Positions 9,118 through 64,000 of a stretch of 64,000 nucleotides of DNA are shown one piece after another (positions within the stretch are counted from its first letter, which is position 1; each line of letters opens with the position of its first letter). The notes below the pieces were generated by a model, which did no database searches, had not been told where the DNA came from, and saw only the letters and a program-made list of their open reading frames with translations. The position numbers and the translations under genes are program-made. This stretch comes from Protoeuglena noctilucae. Its lineage: Eukaryota > Chlorophyta > Pedinophyceae > Marsupiomonadales > Marsupiomonadaceae. Location of the stretch: positions 434,001 to 498,000 of the forward strand of contig OY253669.1 of the NCBI GenBank assembly GCA_958009085.1, written 5' to 3'.

Positions 9118-10074
9118 TGCATGCTGCGCTCATACGTGTGACGCAGCACCTAAAACGTCTCTCAGCCCTCGATCGCCCGCAGCTGATTAGCTGGGTGAGC
9201 TTCAGAGGCGCCGACAAGGCCCACGAGGCGCGAGACGCGGCAGCGGCACCGCAGCGGCCCAGCGACGGTGACGGCGACGACCACGGAGGGCCCAGGGCCC
9301 CGGCAGTCCCGAGGATCACCACGGCGCGGAGGCGGAGCTCCGAGTTCGTGACGGGTGCGTCGAGCCCTGTCGCTAATCGACGGCCCAGGGTCGCAGGGGT
9401 CCCGGTGGCTGACCTGGAGCGATGCACGGGCAGCCCACCGCCTCCGCAGGAGACCGCCGTGCCGTGCGCACCCACCCGTCGCCCCCGCCTGGCCCGGCGC
9501 CTCCGACGGGCCGCCGCGTGTCGAACGAAGACCCCGCGCAGGGGCAGGGCGCTGCGACGCATGGCACTTTGCGGCGCAGGGATTCTCGGGCCATGGACCG
9601 CGTATGACGCTCTTGCGGGGCACGTGCGGGGCCGCTTCTTGCTTAAGCTCCGGTTGCCACGCTCTGGCCATTGGAAAAGGCTGCGCGTGTGGGATAGGGC
9701 ACTGGCAACGTTTAGGGTTCAGGCCCAGTGCGCCCAGGCAAAACACTGAACGAGGCTGCGGCGTGCGAGACACAGTTGGGGGTTGCAGTTAGGGGAGACG
9801 AGGTGTGTTACTCAACGCTTCCTGCCGCTCCAGAGCGCGGTGGGACATCTGGTGCAATCTTGGGGCTCGCGCTCCGCCTTCCGTCGCGCAACGCGCGTGC
9901 CCTCCAGGTGATTGATCGATGCGATGGAAAGCTATGCGTTGCAGGGGGGATGGTCCCCGAACATCCCGCGGTTCGTCTGGGCACTGTGGCGCTGCGTTGC
10001 ACTATGCTGTGCATGCTGCGCACTTGATGCCACCGCTATCGGCGTCGCCGCTGCCCCCAGACGATCTCTGCACC
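9118..10074. other. Stretch without a clear gene
   Basis: A minus-strand open frame at 9029-9562 starts with an Arg-rich, mitochondrial-presequence-like segment (MRRSALPLRGVFVRHAAARR) and includes a short hydrophobic run (LRAVVILGTAGALG). It overlaps the end of the subtilase-like gene and matches no family I know. It could be a small gene or chance in GC-rich DNA. Nothing else is visible. Confidence 0.3.
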
Positions 10075-58747: not shown

Positions 58748-61700
58748 TCACCCCCCCATCCGGAAACTCGCCTCCCCTCGGTCCGGGCTGGTCCCGGCAC
58801 TCACCGCCCCCACCCGCCCGTCCCCATGCCCCACCGACGGACTCACTCCGGGGCTCAAGGCGTGCGCCCGCAGCGTCCCCCCCGCACTCTCCGCCCCCCC
58901 ACCACCACTTGGCGACAGTCCCGCCCCAGCCCCCTCCCCCGCACTCCTCGTGCCAGCTGCCACAGCGGCACCCTCGAACTCGTGACTCGCACCACCCGGC
59001 GACGGCCCTGCGTTGTGGGCCACCCCCGAACTGTGGGCTGCCCCCGTATTGTCGGCCGACGTCGGCCCAGCCTGTGCCACGGTCGCAGCCGCGTCCCTCG
59101 CGCGCGCCAGGTGCCGGGGTGTGAGTAAATCCGCGAGTCGGAAGACGGTCTTACGCACCGCAGCGGCGGCGGCGGACGCGGCGGAGGAGAGCGTGGTGGC
59201 CTGGGTGGCGTTGGTGGCGGTGCGGTGGGGGCGGTCGCGGGGGCTGCTGTCTACGGAGCCTGGGGGGAAGAGGAGAGAGAGGGAGAGGTGGGTGGGTGAT
59301 GCGTGGCGTGAGGTGCGACAGCTCCTGAGCTTGTGGGTGTCCCCAGGTGGTAAGGGTGTGTGTGGTCATTTGGTCAAGGCAGGCACCCGTGCACATACAT
59401 GACAGTGCATACACAGGACCATGCATCTCTGTGCTAAATGCATTTCCTCCACACGCATGTCCCCCTCACCGTCGTCTGCGTCCCTGGGCCCCTCCATCTT
59501 GGCCACCCCCCGCTCCCACACGTCCAGCACCCACCGCGTCATCCCCACGGCCGCACGGCTGCACGCGCCCACTGCGGGGTTGACACCGGGGAACGCGGTC
59601 ATACGCGGGTCATGGGTCAAGCGCGTCATACGACTGTCCCTCTGCTGATATGTCCCTCTACTGCTATGACGGAGACCTCGTTGCAGCATGCACTCCCAGC
59701 TGAGTGCCTCATGCAACTTTCCCCTCTCATCGCCCTCTCACCGATGTCCGGATCAAACATGGGGCTCTGCGCGATGTCCCTCATAGCATACATAGCAGTC
59801 ATACTTATCACACATATCATGATTAAAGTCAACCATTGTCATGCAATTCTCATAACCCCCTCACCGATGTCCGGGTCGAAGAAAGGGCTCTGCGCGATGT
59901 CCCGGAGCTTGCGCCACTTGGTGGGGTGCAGCGTGGGCCGCAGCTGCCGGCACTGCCGCATCTGCTCCAGGAAGTCGTCCACGCTGAGCATCGCGCGCAC
60001 GCACGGGGCCCAGTAGTCCTCCTCCATGCGCCGGTTGTAGAAGTCGTGCGTGCGGACGGGCTCTGGGGGGGAGGGGTGTGTGTGGGGGGGGTTGGACCGG
60101 GGGGGTTTGGGGGGGGCTGGGGGGTATGGGGCGTGGGGCATCGGCGTGGTGCGGAGGTAGCTGGTGCCAGCAGTCGGAGTTGGCTCCTGTCGGGAGCCCT
60201 ATTACACGTCAAAAATGTGAATGTCACCCATGTGACACGAAGTGCTGTGGTACCGTCAATATACCCCACTCACCGATGCCCAGCAGTACGACCACGGCGG
60301 ACATGACCAGTTGTGACAGACACGAGACAGTAACACTAGTACAGCCCCACTCACCGATTCCCAATAAAATGGCCACGGCCGACATGACCAGTTGTGACAT
60401 ATACATGAGCTATTACTGCTACTAGTACTATTGACACCATGACCATACTCACCGATGCCTAGTAAAATGGCCACGGCCGACATGACCAGCCGCACGGCCT
60501 TGTCGGGGGAGCGGAGGCCGCGGAGCTCCACCACGTCGTTGCGGGAGACGAACTGCGAATGGAGGGAGGTGAGACGCAATCAGTGTACATCATATACATC
60601 ATAGTTATGAGTTATGGATACCTATGATGACCAGTAGGTGTCCCAGGTACAGTGCCATACATACATCGCTCGATGCAACTACGCATCGCATCTGACCTCT
60701 TCTATACAAATACATCACGAGTACATCCTAATCAAGTGCTGTCAACAATCATACGTTCATCTCATCAGCACCCGTTCCCCTCGCCCCTCGCCTCGATGTG
60801 GTGGACTAGTGGTGTTGACAAGCGTGCATACGCATCATCGCATCAGCACCCCTCATACATCCCCTCGCCTCGATGTGGTGGACCTTCTTGGAGATGCTCC
60901 TCCCATCGACATGGGGCGTGACCATCTTGAGCGCCTTGCTGCTGGTCGTGCGCATGAAGTGGGGCCGCAGGTCGCCCACGATGGCCGGGCTGCGGTACCG
61001 GGAGCTCCGCATGCTGGTGACGCCGCTCTGCCGGCTCTCCACGCTCACCACCGACTGCACATCGCCGTCGCTGCTCAGCGTGCGCGCCTGGCTCATGCGG
61101 CGGCGGCTCGACTGCGATGGGGGAGGGGGGGGGGAGGGGGTTGGTGGGTGAGTGAGTGAGTGAGTGCCATGGCTCATGCGGCGGCGGCTCGACGGGGGGG
61201 GAAGGGGGGGCGGGTGGGTGGGAGTGATGGGGGGTTGCTAGGTGAGTGGGTGGTTGTGGTGGGGGTGCAAGCAGTGACGCGAGCGGTGAGGTGCCGATGC
61301 CAATGCTACTGCCAAAGCCGGTGCTCATGCTCATACTCATGCACATATACCAATGCCAATGTTCATCCCCCCCCATCTCCCAGGTCACCTGCGTGGAGAG
61401 CATGAAGTGTCGGCTGCCGTTCTCCACCGAGTTGCGGCCGGGGGACGAGGCGGCGTCCCTGGGGGCAGGGTGGTGGGGGGCGTGAGGTGCGTGGGAGATG
61501 GTGGTTTTGTGCAAGCGGGCATGTTTGTGAGGGGGAAAGGCCAAGTTCACCTCCTCCCGGCAGATGGAGAGCCTTGCATCTGTCTACAATATCACGACCC
61601 ACCCATCTTGCACTGTATATTCCCCCCCCACCCCAACAATCCCCCCCACCACCCCCCCTTCCCTCGCCTGGCCAGTGACCCCTGCCGCGACCTCAGTGGC

Positions 61701-64000
61701 CCCCTCCCCCTCCTCCCCACCGCACTGCCCGCGTCCGAGTCCGAGTCGTCCAGCGTGCGGGTGCGGAAGGAGGCAGTCGGGAGCATGTACCTGTGGGGAG
61801 GTGGGGAGAGATGGAGGGCGAGGGTAGCATAGCAGCAGGATTGGGCACACGCTGCCAGGGGTGGGAGCGTGCAGTTGAGCAGGGCTGTCGGTGCCTAGTG
61901 CCTACTATTCGCATCTTGCCCGCAACAGCGTCCCAAGCATGCCCCCCTTGCTCGCCTGGGAATGGTCCCATCGCCCCGCGAGTCAATCGATGACATGCGC
62001 GATATCTGAGACACGGACCCCGGTCCGGGGGAGTCGTTGTCATCCGCTGGAGTGGCCTTGAAGGAAGAGGACTTGGTGGGGCGCATGTACCTGGGGGGGG
62101 GGGTGAGGGTGAGGGGGGTGCAAGGCATGGCATTACAGCACGGCATTACAGCACGTGCGAGCATGCAAACAGAGGAGTGGGGTGCCAAAGCCAGAGCAGG
62201 GCGTGGCGGATTGAGGCATACACCCGCTCGCCCTCTCTCGCAATCAATAACAAGAGCGACAGTCGCAACAATCACCCATCCCCATCCCCTCGTCTCTCAC
62301 CCCGGCGTGGGCCCCGAACTGGCCTCCCCCCTCAGGTGCGAGGGGTTGTGCACGCGAGCCTCAGAGATCGCCGTCAGTCCCCCCAGGGTGGGCGCGCTGG
62401 GGCCCGCGGCGGATGCGGCGTCGTAGACCCTCTTGGCCCACACGGCGATGCCCGCAGCGGCCAGGGACACCGTGCGCAGGCTCTGGGGGGGGGGGGTTAC
62501 GGGGTGTGGAATGCGCTGAGGTGCATGAGAAACCGTACGCAGGCTCTGTGTGTGGGGGGGGGGGGGGGGGGGGAGGAGTTAGAGGGAGGGAGAGGTGGGA
62601 TGGTGGGGTGTTGACAGCGCTGAGGTGCATGAGACACCGTGCGCAGGCTCTGAGGTGAGGGGAGAGGGGTTTAAGGGGGGTAGAGATGGGATGGTGGTGC
62701 TTTGAAGGTGGTGTTGACTGCGCTGATGCTCACTAGACACCCAAGTCACCCTATACATGCATGGCACTCCCCCCGCATCGCCATCACCCTCATGCACTCC
62801 TACATACACTCCAACCACCCCAAACTCTCCCTCCCCCGCCCAAACCACCCACCTCCGGCTCCAGCGCCCCCCTCTCCAGCAGCACCCCCACCCTGTGCAG
62901 CGCCTCGGGTGCAATGCTGAGCTTGTCCGCGTCGTTGTGCAGGATACACCGATCGGCCACGTCCTGTAGCCTATTCAAGAACCGATTGACGTCGTGCATC
63001 ATCGATAGAGCCGTCTTCCACCAATCGGGGGCGTGGGTCTTGCCCTTGGGAGTGGCGTTGCGTACGGGAACCATCACGGGGGACTGCCCCAGCAGCAAGC
63101 TCACGGCCTCAAACACCGGGATGACGGCGGGGGAGGGGGTGCGGAGGGCGCGCAGCATGGATATTTCTGGCTTGGAGATGCCCAGCAAGGCGATGTCAAT
63201 CATGCCGGTGTCGTCGGCCTCGGGGGCGGGGGCGGCCGGGGCGGACTCGGCGGCGGGGCGGGCGCGGGCGGGGGTGTCGGAAGCGCGCCTGGGGGGGGAG
63301 GGGGTTGGGGGGTGGATGTGGATGGAGAGGGAGAGGGATGGGGAGGAGGGTGGGGTGGGGTGGGTTTGGAGGGAGGGGGTGTGTGAGTGGATAATAAGGC
63401 GACGGAAGTGGGGGTGTTTGAGGCGCTCCTGGGGGGGGGGGGTTGAGAGGGGTGGGGTGGAGTGGGGGGGTGAGGTGGATGGGTGGCTAACGTGTGGGTC
63501 ACGAGGTGCATGTTGTACAGGGGCAGTTGCGTAGGGATCGACGTCCCGCACCGCACTGCGTTGTGTAAAGGCCGCAGCGAGCACAGGAGGGGTCACCCAA
63601 GCAACCATGCACACGACCACGCCTCGCTCTGTGTATGGCATGCCTAGGCAGGTAGCATGTATGTAGCATGCGTGTCCCTCACTTGAGTTTCTCGATGAGG
63701 GCGGGCTGCGTGGCCTGGTTGAGGCTCCAGATGCCGATGAGGACGGCGTGGAGCTTCTGGATTTCCGGGCCGGCCGTGCGCACCGCTGGAGGGGGGGGGG
63801 GTTGGAGGGCGTATGAGTGAGTGGGCATGTGGTGATGCATACTGCGACAAACGGTGGCTGGCATGACATGGTATAACGTGTGTAATGGAGAAAGACACGA
63901 GAGCCGCAGCGACGGGTGGTGCGGCACCGTTGACGTCGTCACCCCCACGCACGGCTGCACTCCTGCTGCCACCCCACCCCCACCCATACCACCCCCTCAC
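58748..64000 (-). CDS. Stand-alone protein with repeated dynein-stalk (MT)-like units, 5' end outside window
   Basis: The window edge falls on a donor, so only the C-terminal part is seen. Eleven exons chain in frame. Unit 1: IQKLHAVLIGIWSLNQATQP, then PVFEAVSLLLGQSPVMVPVR, DWWKTALSMMHDVNRFLNRL and, after splicing, SLRTVSLAAAGIAVWAKRVY. A Ser/Asp-rich linker with YMRPTKSSSFKATP and YMLPTASFRTRTLDD follows. Unit 2: HVDGRSISKKVHHIE-FVSRN, ELRGLRSPDKAVRLVMSAVA, EEDYWAPCVRAMLSVDDFLE, then VGACSRAAVGMTRWVLDVWE. Both units follow the dynein heavy-chain stalk pattern: a hydrophobic helix ending LLG, W-W/Y-W, a FL..L helix, then an S-A-A...W-V-type helix. A Gly/Ala/Ser-rich tail ends at TGA 58748-58750. 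No AAA module follows unit 2. Confidence 0.68.
59738..59904. repeat. Tandem copy of a dynein-stalk-like exon end with donor
   Basis: The exon end at 59861-59904 (tcaccgatgtccgggtcgaa..) recurs at 59738-59782 within the downstream intron with a few substitutions, keeping the GTGA donor. On the minus strand it re-encodes the RDIAQSPxFDPDIG ending. Confidence 0.85.
60270..60489. repeat. Three copies of a dynein-stalk-like exon end with donor
   Basis: The real exon end at 60449-60489 (minus strand, LVMSAVAILLGIG plus GTGAGT) recurs at 60351-60390 and 60270-60310. The two intron copies also share flanking ccagttgtgaca and gccccac/accccac strings, so they look like one later duplication of about 81 bases. 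Confidence 0.88.
60764..60882. repeat. Tandem copy of an exon end with a GC donor
   Basis: The string cccctcgcctcgatgtggtgga, holding the exon end and its GC donor (60868), occurs at 60861-60882 and at about 60784-60805. Both copies are preceded by catcagcaccc, giving a tandem duplication of about 77 bases. Confidence 0.82.
61090..61193. repeat. Tandem copy of an exon start in the dynein-stalk-like gene
   Basis: The 23-base string ggctcatgcggcggcggctc.. occurs at 61090-61112 (coding start of an exon, minus strand) and at 61171-61193 in the upstream intron, 81 bases apart. Confidence 0.85.
62465..62652. repeat. Three copies of an exon start with its acceptor
   Basis: The string accgtgcgcaggctctg (minus strand CAG|AGCCTGCGCACGGT) occurs at the true exon start (62465-62485) and, with slight changes, at about 62528-62548 and 62631-62652. 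The two intron copies share a longer unit that includes gcgctgaggtgcatgaga. A run of about 18 G follows the middle copy. Confidence 0.85.

Follow-up and report, generated by a model that had tools for sequence, protein, structure and literature searches.

The stretch analysed here, 64,000 nucleotides of the green alga Protoeuglena noctilucae (contig OY253669.1, below C2, positions 434001-498000; hereafter the window), carries on its minus strand a gene composed of repeated modules similar to the microtubule-binding domain (MTBD) of dynein heavy chains. In dynein this domain forms the tip of the motor, and the ATPase acts through the stalk to set its affinity. Eleven exons (63785-63683 to 59259-58748) join in one frame, as originally predicted, from position 63785 to a stop codon at 58748-58750. 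Extension of the contig past position 64000 added two in-frame exons, 64728-64504 (exon A) and 64168-64001 (exon B) in extended numbering; with them the joined chain reaches 864 residues, without a start codon. The original prediction had counted two units and allowed for more of them upstream. Repeated dynein-type units are indeed present in one gene, but their number is at least three: exon 1 together with exons A and B forms a further one, unit 0. In the chain, unit 0 occupies approximately residues 21-165, unit 1 193-339 and unit 2 553-688. The exons are distributed as follows, in window coordinates unless C2 is given:

C2:498504-498728, minus strand: exon A, unit 0, outside the window
C2:498001-498168, minus strand: exon B, unit 0, outside the window
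63683..63785, minus strand: exon 1, C-terminal part of unit 0 (by phmmer against PDB and by hidden Markov model)
62853..63288, minus strand: exon 2, short linker between units 0 and 1, then helices H1-H5 of unit 1 with the flap insertion between H2 and H3
62301..62482, minus strand: exon 3, H6 of unit 1 and beginning of the linker between units 1 and 2
61956..62090, minus strand: exon 4, linker motif copy 1 (YMRPTKSS), followed by a GC donor; joins 3/4 and 4/5 matched in the homologue P0001
61668..61790, minus strand: exon 5, linker motif copy 2 (YMLPTASF), followed by a GC donor
61389..61458, minus strand: exon 6, linker with beginning of motif copy 3 (FMLSTQ/SS)
60869..61111, minus strand: exon 7, motif copy 4 (FMRTTSS), then beginning of unit 2, followed by a GC donor
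60453..60552, minus strand: exon 8, H1-H2 of unit 2; 76% identity to P0001
59865..60062, minus strand: exon 9, flap and H3-H5 of unit 2; 62% identity to P0001
59470..59571, minus strand: exon 10, H6 of unit 2; 55% identity to P0001
58748..59259, minus strand: exon 11, C-terminal tail with conserved helix (VRKTVFRLADLLTPRHLARARD), conserved end SPDRGEASFR and stop codon at 58748-58750

Relationship of the units to dynein was examined with the Pfam MT profile (PF12777), chosen as the test beforehand. The whole chain matches it with E 2.3e-14. Both predicted units match it also individually, unit 2 (30.7 bits, E 2.2e-7) above the curated cut-off of 24 bits and unit 1 (22.7 bits, E 5.9e-5) slightly below; the match of unit 0 alone (E 0.13) is not significant. 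Pfam also listed CCDC154 as a weak match (E 0.22 with the chain, 0.04 with unit 1 by itself), far below the cut-off of that family. When the units were compared to PDB sequences by phmmer, at least nine top rows for each of them were dynein heavy chains, with best E-values of 2e-17 for unit 2 (Chlamydomonas DHC9, 2rr7, an inner-arm dynein), 1.2e-8 for unit 1 and 7e-4 for unit 0. A hidden Markov model (HMM) of the MTBD, seeded with 15 domains (13 dynein MTBDs of the same genome and two PDB stretches), scored unit 0 at 27.1 bits, unit 1 at 65.8 and unit 2 at 62.9, against 5.9, 8.3 and 5.7 bits for the best of 1000 shuffles of each unit, and -1.7 bits for the C-terminal tail; the linker did not figure among the reported matches. 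A chance match can be dismissed for units 1 and 2 and is most improbable for unit 0, whose match within the whole chain spans HMM positions 5-70 only.

Alignment of the modules revealed which parts of the dynein domain are retained. The proline after H1 and the tryptophan of H3 are invariant across 14 aligned MTBDs, and units 1 and 2, not unit 0, contain an H2-H3 insertion resembling the flap of many axonemal dyneins. The long antiparallel coiled coil of the stalk is absent: the alignment rows lack the long CC1 and CC2 helices seen in dyneins, and the matched parts of the 344 positions of PF12777 (89-159 in unit 0, 97-204 in unit 1, 99-206 in unit 2) together extend over 89-206 at most. The units had been described originally as stalk plus microtubule-binding region; the head stands, whereas the stalk is exactly the missing part. 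The module cores are basic, with isoelectric points (pI) of 10.25, 9.36 and 9.25 for units 0, 1 and 2; those of the dynein MTBD cores from the same genome are 5.09-8.68 in 12 of 13 cases and 9.59 in the thirteenth, and for the two PDB stretches the values are 8.76 and 8.67.

The linker between units 0 and 1 is short (about 27 residues). The one between units 1 and 2 measures about 213 residues and is basic and of low complexity (pI 11.4, net charge +13). Within it the motif [YF][ML]x[PSTA]T..S (in shorter form [YF]M.[PST]T.SS), a pattern drawn up after the repeats had been noticed, is present in four copies (exons 4-7, 62090-60869), possibly docking or phosphorylation repeats.

Protein searches were carried out with chain residues 1-700 and with the unit 2 region, both against 5.8 billion predicted proteins, and with a small gene described below. 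The first two found a single homologue, P0001, of 570 residues on a contig of 1772 bases; the search with residues 1-700 scored only the 7,995 candidates with most shared words, and longer or intron-split relatives would escape these searches. P0001 is 64% identical to unit 2 across 92% of the searched stretch and reads unbroken from the middle of unit 1, across the linker and unit 2, up to a terminus that matches the one of the window gene. Because the window gene has nine introns over the same span, the simplest view of P0001 is that it is a transcript; alternatively, it stems from a relative with few introns. Of the nine joins, six (2/3, 3/4, 4/5, 7/8, 8/9 and 9/10) are spanned by gap-free alignment; joins 5/6, 6/7 and 10/11 fall in poorly aligned sequence, on which P0001 says nothing. 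The homologue also has four copies of the linker motif and shares the C-terminal helix (VRKTVFRLADLLTPRHLARARD in the window gene, VRKTIFSLAAMVTPRSLKKARD in P0001; residues 471-488 of the P0001 model, at low confidence), and both chains finish in SPD...SFR. Units 1 and 2 thus belong to one gene and not to separate ones, being joined in a homologous unbroken coding sequence, and the unbroken reading with matching end supports both the joins and a terminus devoid of AAA5 and AAA6. In the structural model of P0001 most of the linker has pLDDT <50 and is probably disordered. Foldseek returned three matches at E <= 0.001 for this model, with the first 41 rows all dynein, and one such match for unit 1, with the first 21 rows dynein. 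The E-values alone are modest, and assignment of the predicted structures to the MTBD helical fold is based on this run of top dynein rows together with VIA-align.

Motor modules were searched for in the whole genome (26.3 Mb, 26 contigs) by six-frame, intron-blind profile searches. AAA5 (PF12781) gave 18 matches and AAA4 (PF12780) 17, in each case at 13 loci, none on C2; all 13 dynein loci found have both modules. With PF12777 there were 17 matches, which fall on these 13 loci and on a fourteenth place, C4:745465. As PF12777 itself missed the present gene on C2, the absence of AAA4 and AAA5 from this contig is good but not strict evidence. Pfam found no AAA domain in the joined chain (AAA6 was not searched separately in the genome). 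The chain ends after unit 2, as does P0001, and the AAA5 that follows the stalk in a dynein motor was not seen there. The proposed end without AAA5 and AAA6 is hereby supported, and the view of a stand-alone, possibly non-motor protein gained support from the lack of anything similar to AAA5 or AAA6 after the last unit.

The upstream side is bounded by an assembly gap of 200 N (C2:498912-499111), which begins 183 bases upstream of exon A; because of it the N-terminus and the first exon or exons are unseen. Each of three gaps noted on the contig is 200 N long, the standard length, so that its true size may differ. Because of the gap, the evidence against AAA modules before the first unit, also envisaged originally, is not strict, although AAA4 has no match on C2 and nothing AAA4-like is visible by eye in the 183 bases. 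The segment C2:499112-521440, between the first gap and the next one (521441-521640), carries the 5' part of an Mtr4-like helicase on the minus strand beside the first gap, while the 3' part is on the plus strand after the second gap. Joined with 36 X, the two parts lie in order along human MTR4, with X over about as many residues. The helicase being split over opposite strands, this scaffold piece is probably inverted. If so, the start of the dynein-like gene may be the ATG just before C2:521440 (MAPAGSLSRLGALP...).

Three of the ten introns between the 11 exons have a GC instead of GT donor (after exons 4, 5 and 7; window positions 61955, 61667 and 60868), each of the form AG/GCGAG. Similar GC donors were noticed by eye in the Mtr4-like gene (extracted piece L012, about 3731 and 4712). 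Several introns also hold partial copies of the adjoining exon edge including the splice site (window 60264-60502, 59725-59903, 62470-62663 and 61089-61221; repeat families D3, D5, D6, D9 and D11), and the Mtr4-like gene has, again by eye, copies of the same kind (extracted piece L009, about 9119-9400).

The additional PF12777 match on contig C4 belongs to a mini-gene (C4:745294-745963, minus strand) of three exons (ATG GCG GAC / ... GACTG / G GTG ACG ... TAG), whose splice joins were deduced by reading the sequence. From ATG to stop, the deduced model codes for about 163 residues with one MTBD and stubs of CC1 and CC2. It scores 70.5 bits with the MTBD HMM and is closest in PDB to DNAH6 (E 2.1e-12). 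The protein search with it retrieved one protein, P0002, which, judging by near-identity, is the mini-gene's own unspliced frame. Like the window gene, it presents an MTBD without a nearby AAA4 or AAA5 match in the six-frame genome search; it differs in having one unit, short CC1 and CC2 and small total length. With a second such gene in the genome, the multi-head gene looks less like a single accident. A single-protein query of the genome returned 14 matches, consisting of the dynein loci, the mini-gene (two rows) and a weak one at C4:271968 (E 0.47); intron-split copies could escape it.

What lies at the locus is thus a series of MTBD modules of dynein type, at least three of them, within a single frame, without the coiled coil of the stalk and, within the assembly and the searches made, without AAA modules. 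We propose, with a probability of about 0.62, that its product is a non-motor, multivalent microtubule-associated protein. Each module would dock on the microtubule surface in the manner of a dynein head. One study describes sliding of the stalk helix CC1 as the switch between weak and strong binding of the head (PMC7042235). According to another, the head is for the most part a rigid body, "permanently primed" for microtubule binding, and larger movement is confined to H1 and CC1 (PMC6629372). Lacking the stalk, the heads would not be switchable by helix sliding nor be under ATPase control, so that binding would be constitutive or set by phosphorylation or by partners. Three heads on a basic chain would bind firmly through multivalency (avidity). 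By its length the linker of about 27 residues might span one 8-nm tubulin step, that is, neighbouring dimers, and the one of about 213 residues might allow unit 2 to reach a different protofilament or doublet, or else a second microtubule. Such a protein would most likely serve as cross-linker or scaffold in the flagellum or on the cortical microtubules of this flagellate green alga, partners being recruited by the motif repeated in the linker or by the C-terminal helix. The view of the organism as a green flagellate agrees with the light-harvesting proteins of the genome (PF00504), among which one frame resembles by eye an LHCII of the green lineage, and with the closeness of unit 2 to a Chlamydomonas dynein.

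It is rather unlikely, in our opinion, that the protein keeps the MTBD fold mainly to compete with axonemal dyneins or to brake them and thereby tune beating, whether by occupying their landing sites on the doublet or by titrating MTBD partners, for example light chain LC1. Such a role would suit a genome with at least 13 dynein heavy-chain loci, the proximity of unit 2 to an inner-arm MTBD (2rr7, E 2e-17) with the axonemal flap kept, and the presence of the LC1-MTBD complex (6l4p) among structural neighbours. Why an inhibitor would need three divergent modules and so long a basic linker is not obvious, however; the docking step is common to both proposals and sequence alone cannot tell them apart. 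We consider slightly less probable still that microtubule binding was lost and the fold co-opted for a non-tubulin partner, as a protein scaffold. In unit 0 much of the pattern is gone (its restricted HMM match is given above). Moreover, an H1 glutamate, said to contact tubulin in dynein-1 and dynein-2 (PMC12706001), is seemingly kept in unit 2 only, as placed by eye, and several dyneins of this genome also do without it. Against loss of binding stand the invariant proline and tryptophan, the modules being more basic than 12 of the 13 dynein MTBDs, and the conservation of unit 2 in P0001 (64% identity, with 92% of the searched stretch covered).

Two further explanations carry far less weight. 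The standard gaps, whose real size may differ, would permit AAA1-AAA4 to be hidden upstream, the gene then being the C-terminal part of an unusual dynein that had lost AAA5 and AAA6. This is highly improbable given that C2 has no AAA4 or AAA5 match, the 183 bases before exon A hold nothing AAA4-like by eye, no AAA5 or AAA6 follows unit 2 either here or in P0001, and dynein has one MTBD where this chain has three. The low-complexity linker, the duplicated exon edges in introns and the GC donors may raise suspicion of a pseudogene derived from dynein, or of open frames that chain by chance. Such a possibility, for which we see hardly any room, is already contradicted: shuffles stay far below the unit scores (<= 8.3 versus 27-66 bits), and P0001 keeps the frame, six of the nine joins that it spans, and the motif copies, helix, tail and end, which makes a pseudogene or false chain very unlikely.

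If the dynein head was indeed freed from its motor and reused as a static adaptor, as considered below, there would be an overlooked class of non-motor microtubule-associated proteins derived from dynein MTBDs, with genes split by introns or mistaken for dynein fragments. The gene also warns that a PF12777 match lacking AAA modules is not necessarily a fragment produced by annotation. No description of a non-motor MTBD protein or of a stalkless head array was met in our literature search, which is weak evidence as most subscription papers were outside its scope; the class would be an addition to that literature. A natural string of heads free of stalk and motor would reveal how the head behaves by itself, and would offer an existing system in which to ask whether switching of affinity requires the coiled coil.

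As for the origin of the units, their best matches in the own genome lie at different dynein loci (C17 and C5 for unit 2, C14 for unit 1, C9 for unit 0), which suggested separate captures. Nineteen MTBDs were placed in a maximum-likelihood tree (116 of 171 columns), which is dominated by long branches. One of its 16 branches was starred, the pair of unit 2 and P0001, and a single clade of units was not rejected (AU test, p 0.313). Serial capture from different dyneins is by this tree neither shown nor excluded.

We see about an even chance that the dynein head was freed from its motor and reused as a static adaptor, as in the array of at least three heads and the one-head mini-protein described here and, by fold, in a Toxoplasma protein. 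The latter, chain 9ya2_L of the intraconoidal microtubules, is probably ICMAP2 (it might be ICMAP4) and presents a possible precedent (PMC12819142, PMC10774369). The likeness is in fold only, with 4% sequence identity, and the resolved domain makes up about 10% of a protein of 1,678 residues; in the available text of PMC12819142, "dynein" is named twice, both times in one reference entry. Among solved structures, the nearest dynein MTBDs are those of Chlamydomonas DHC9 (dynein-c, 2rr7), human DNAH7 (6rza) and human DNAH1 (8i3j). With dynein MTBDs the modules share the fold, the proline after H1 and the tryptophan of H3, and units 1 and 2 also the flap. In contrast to dynein heavy chains, the present chain carries at least three heads that are more basic than 12 of the 13 dynein MTBDs in the same genome, has its coiled-coil stalk reduced to stubs and no AAA match seen, and has an extra linker with a repeated motif.
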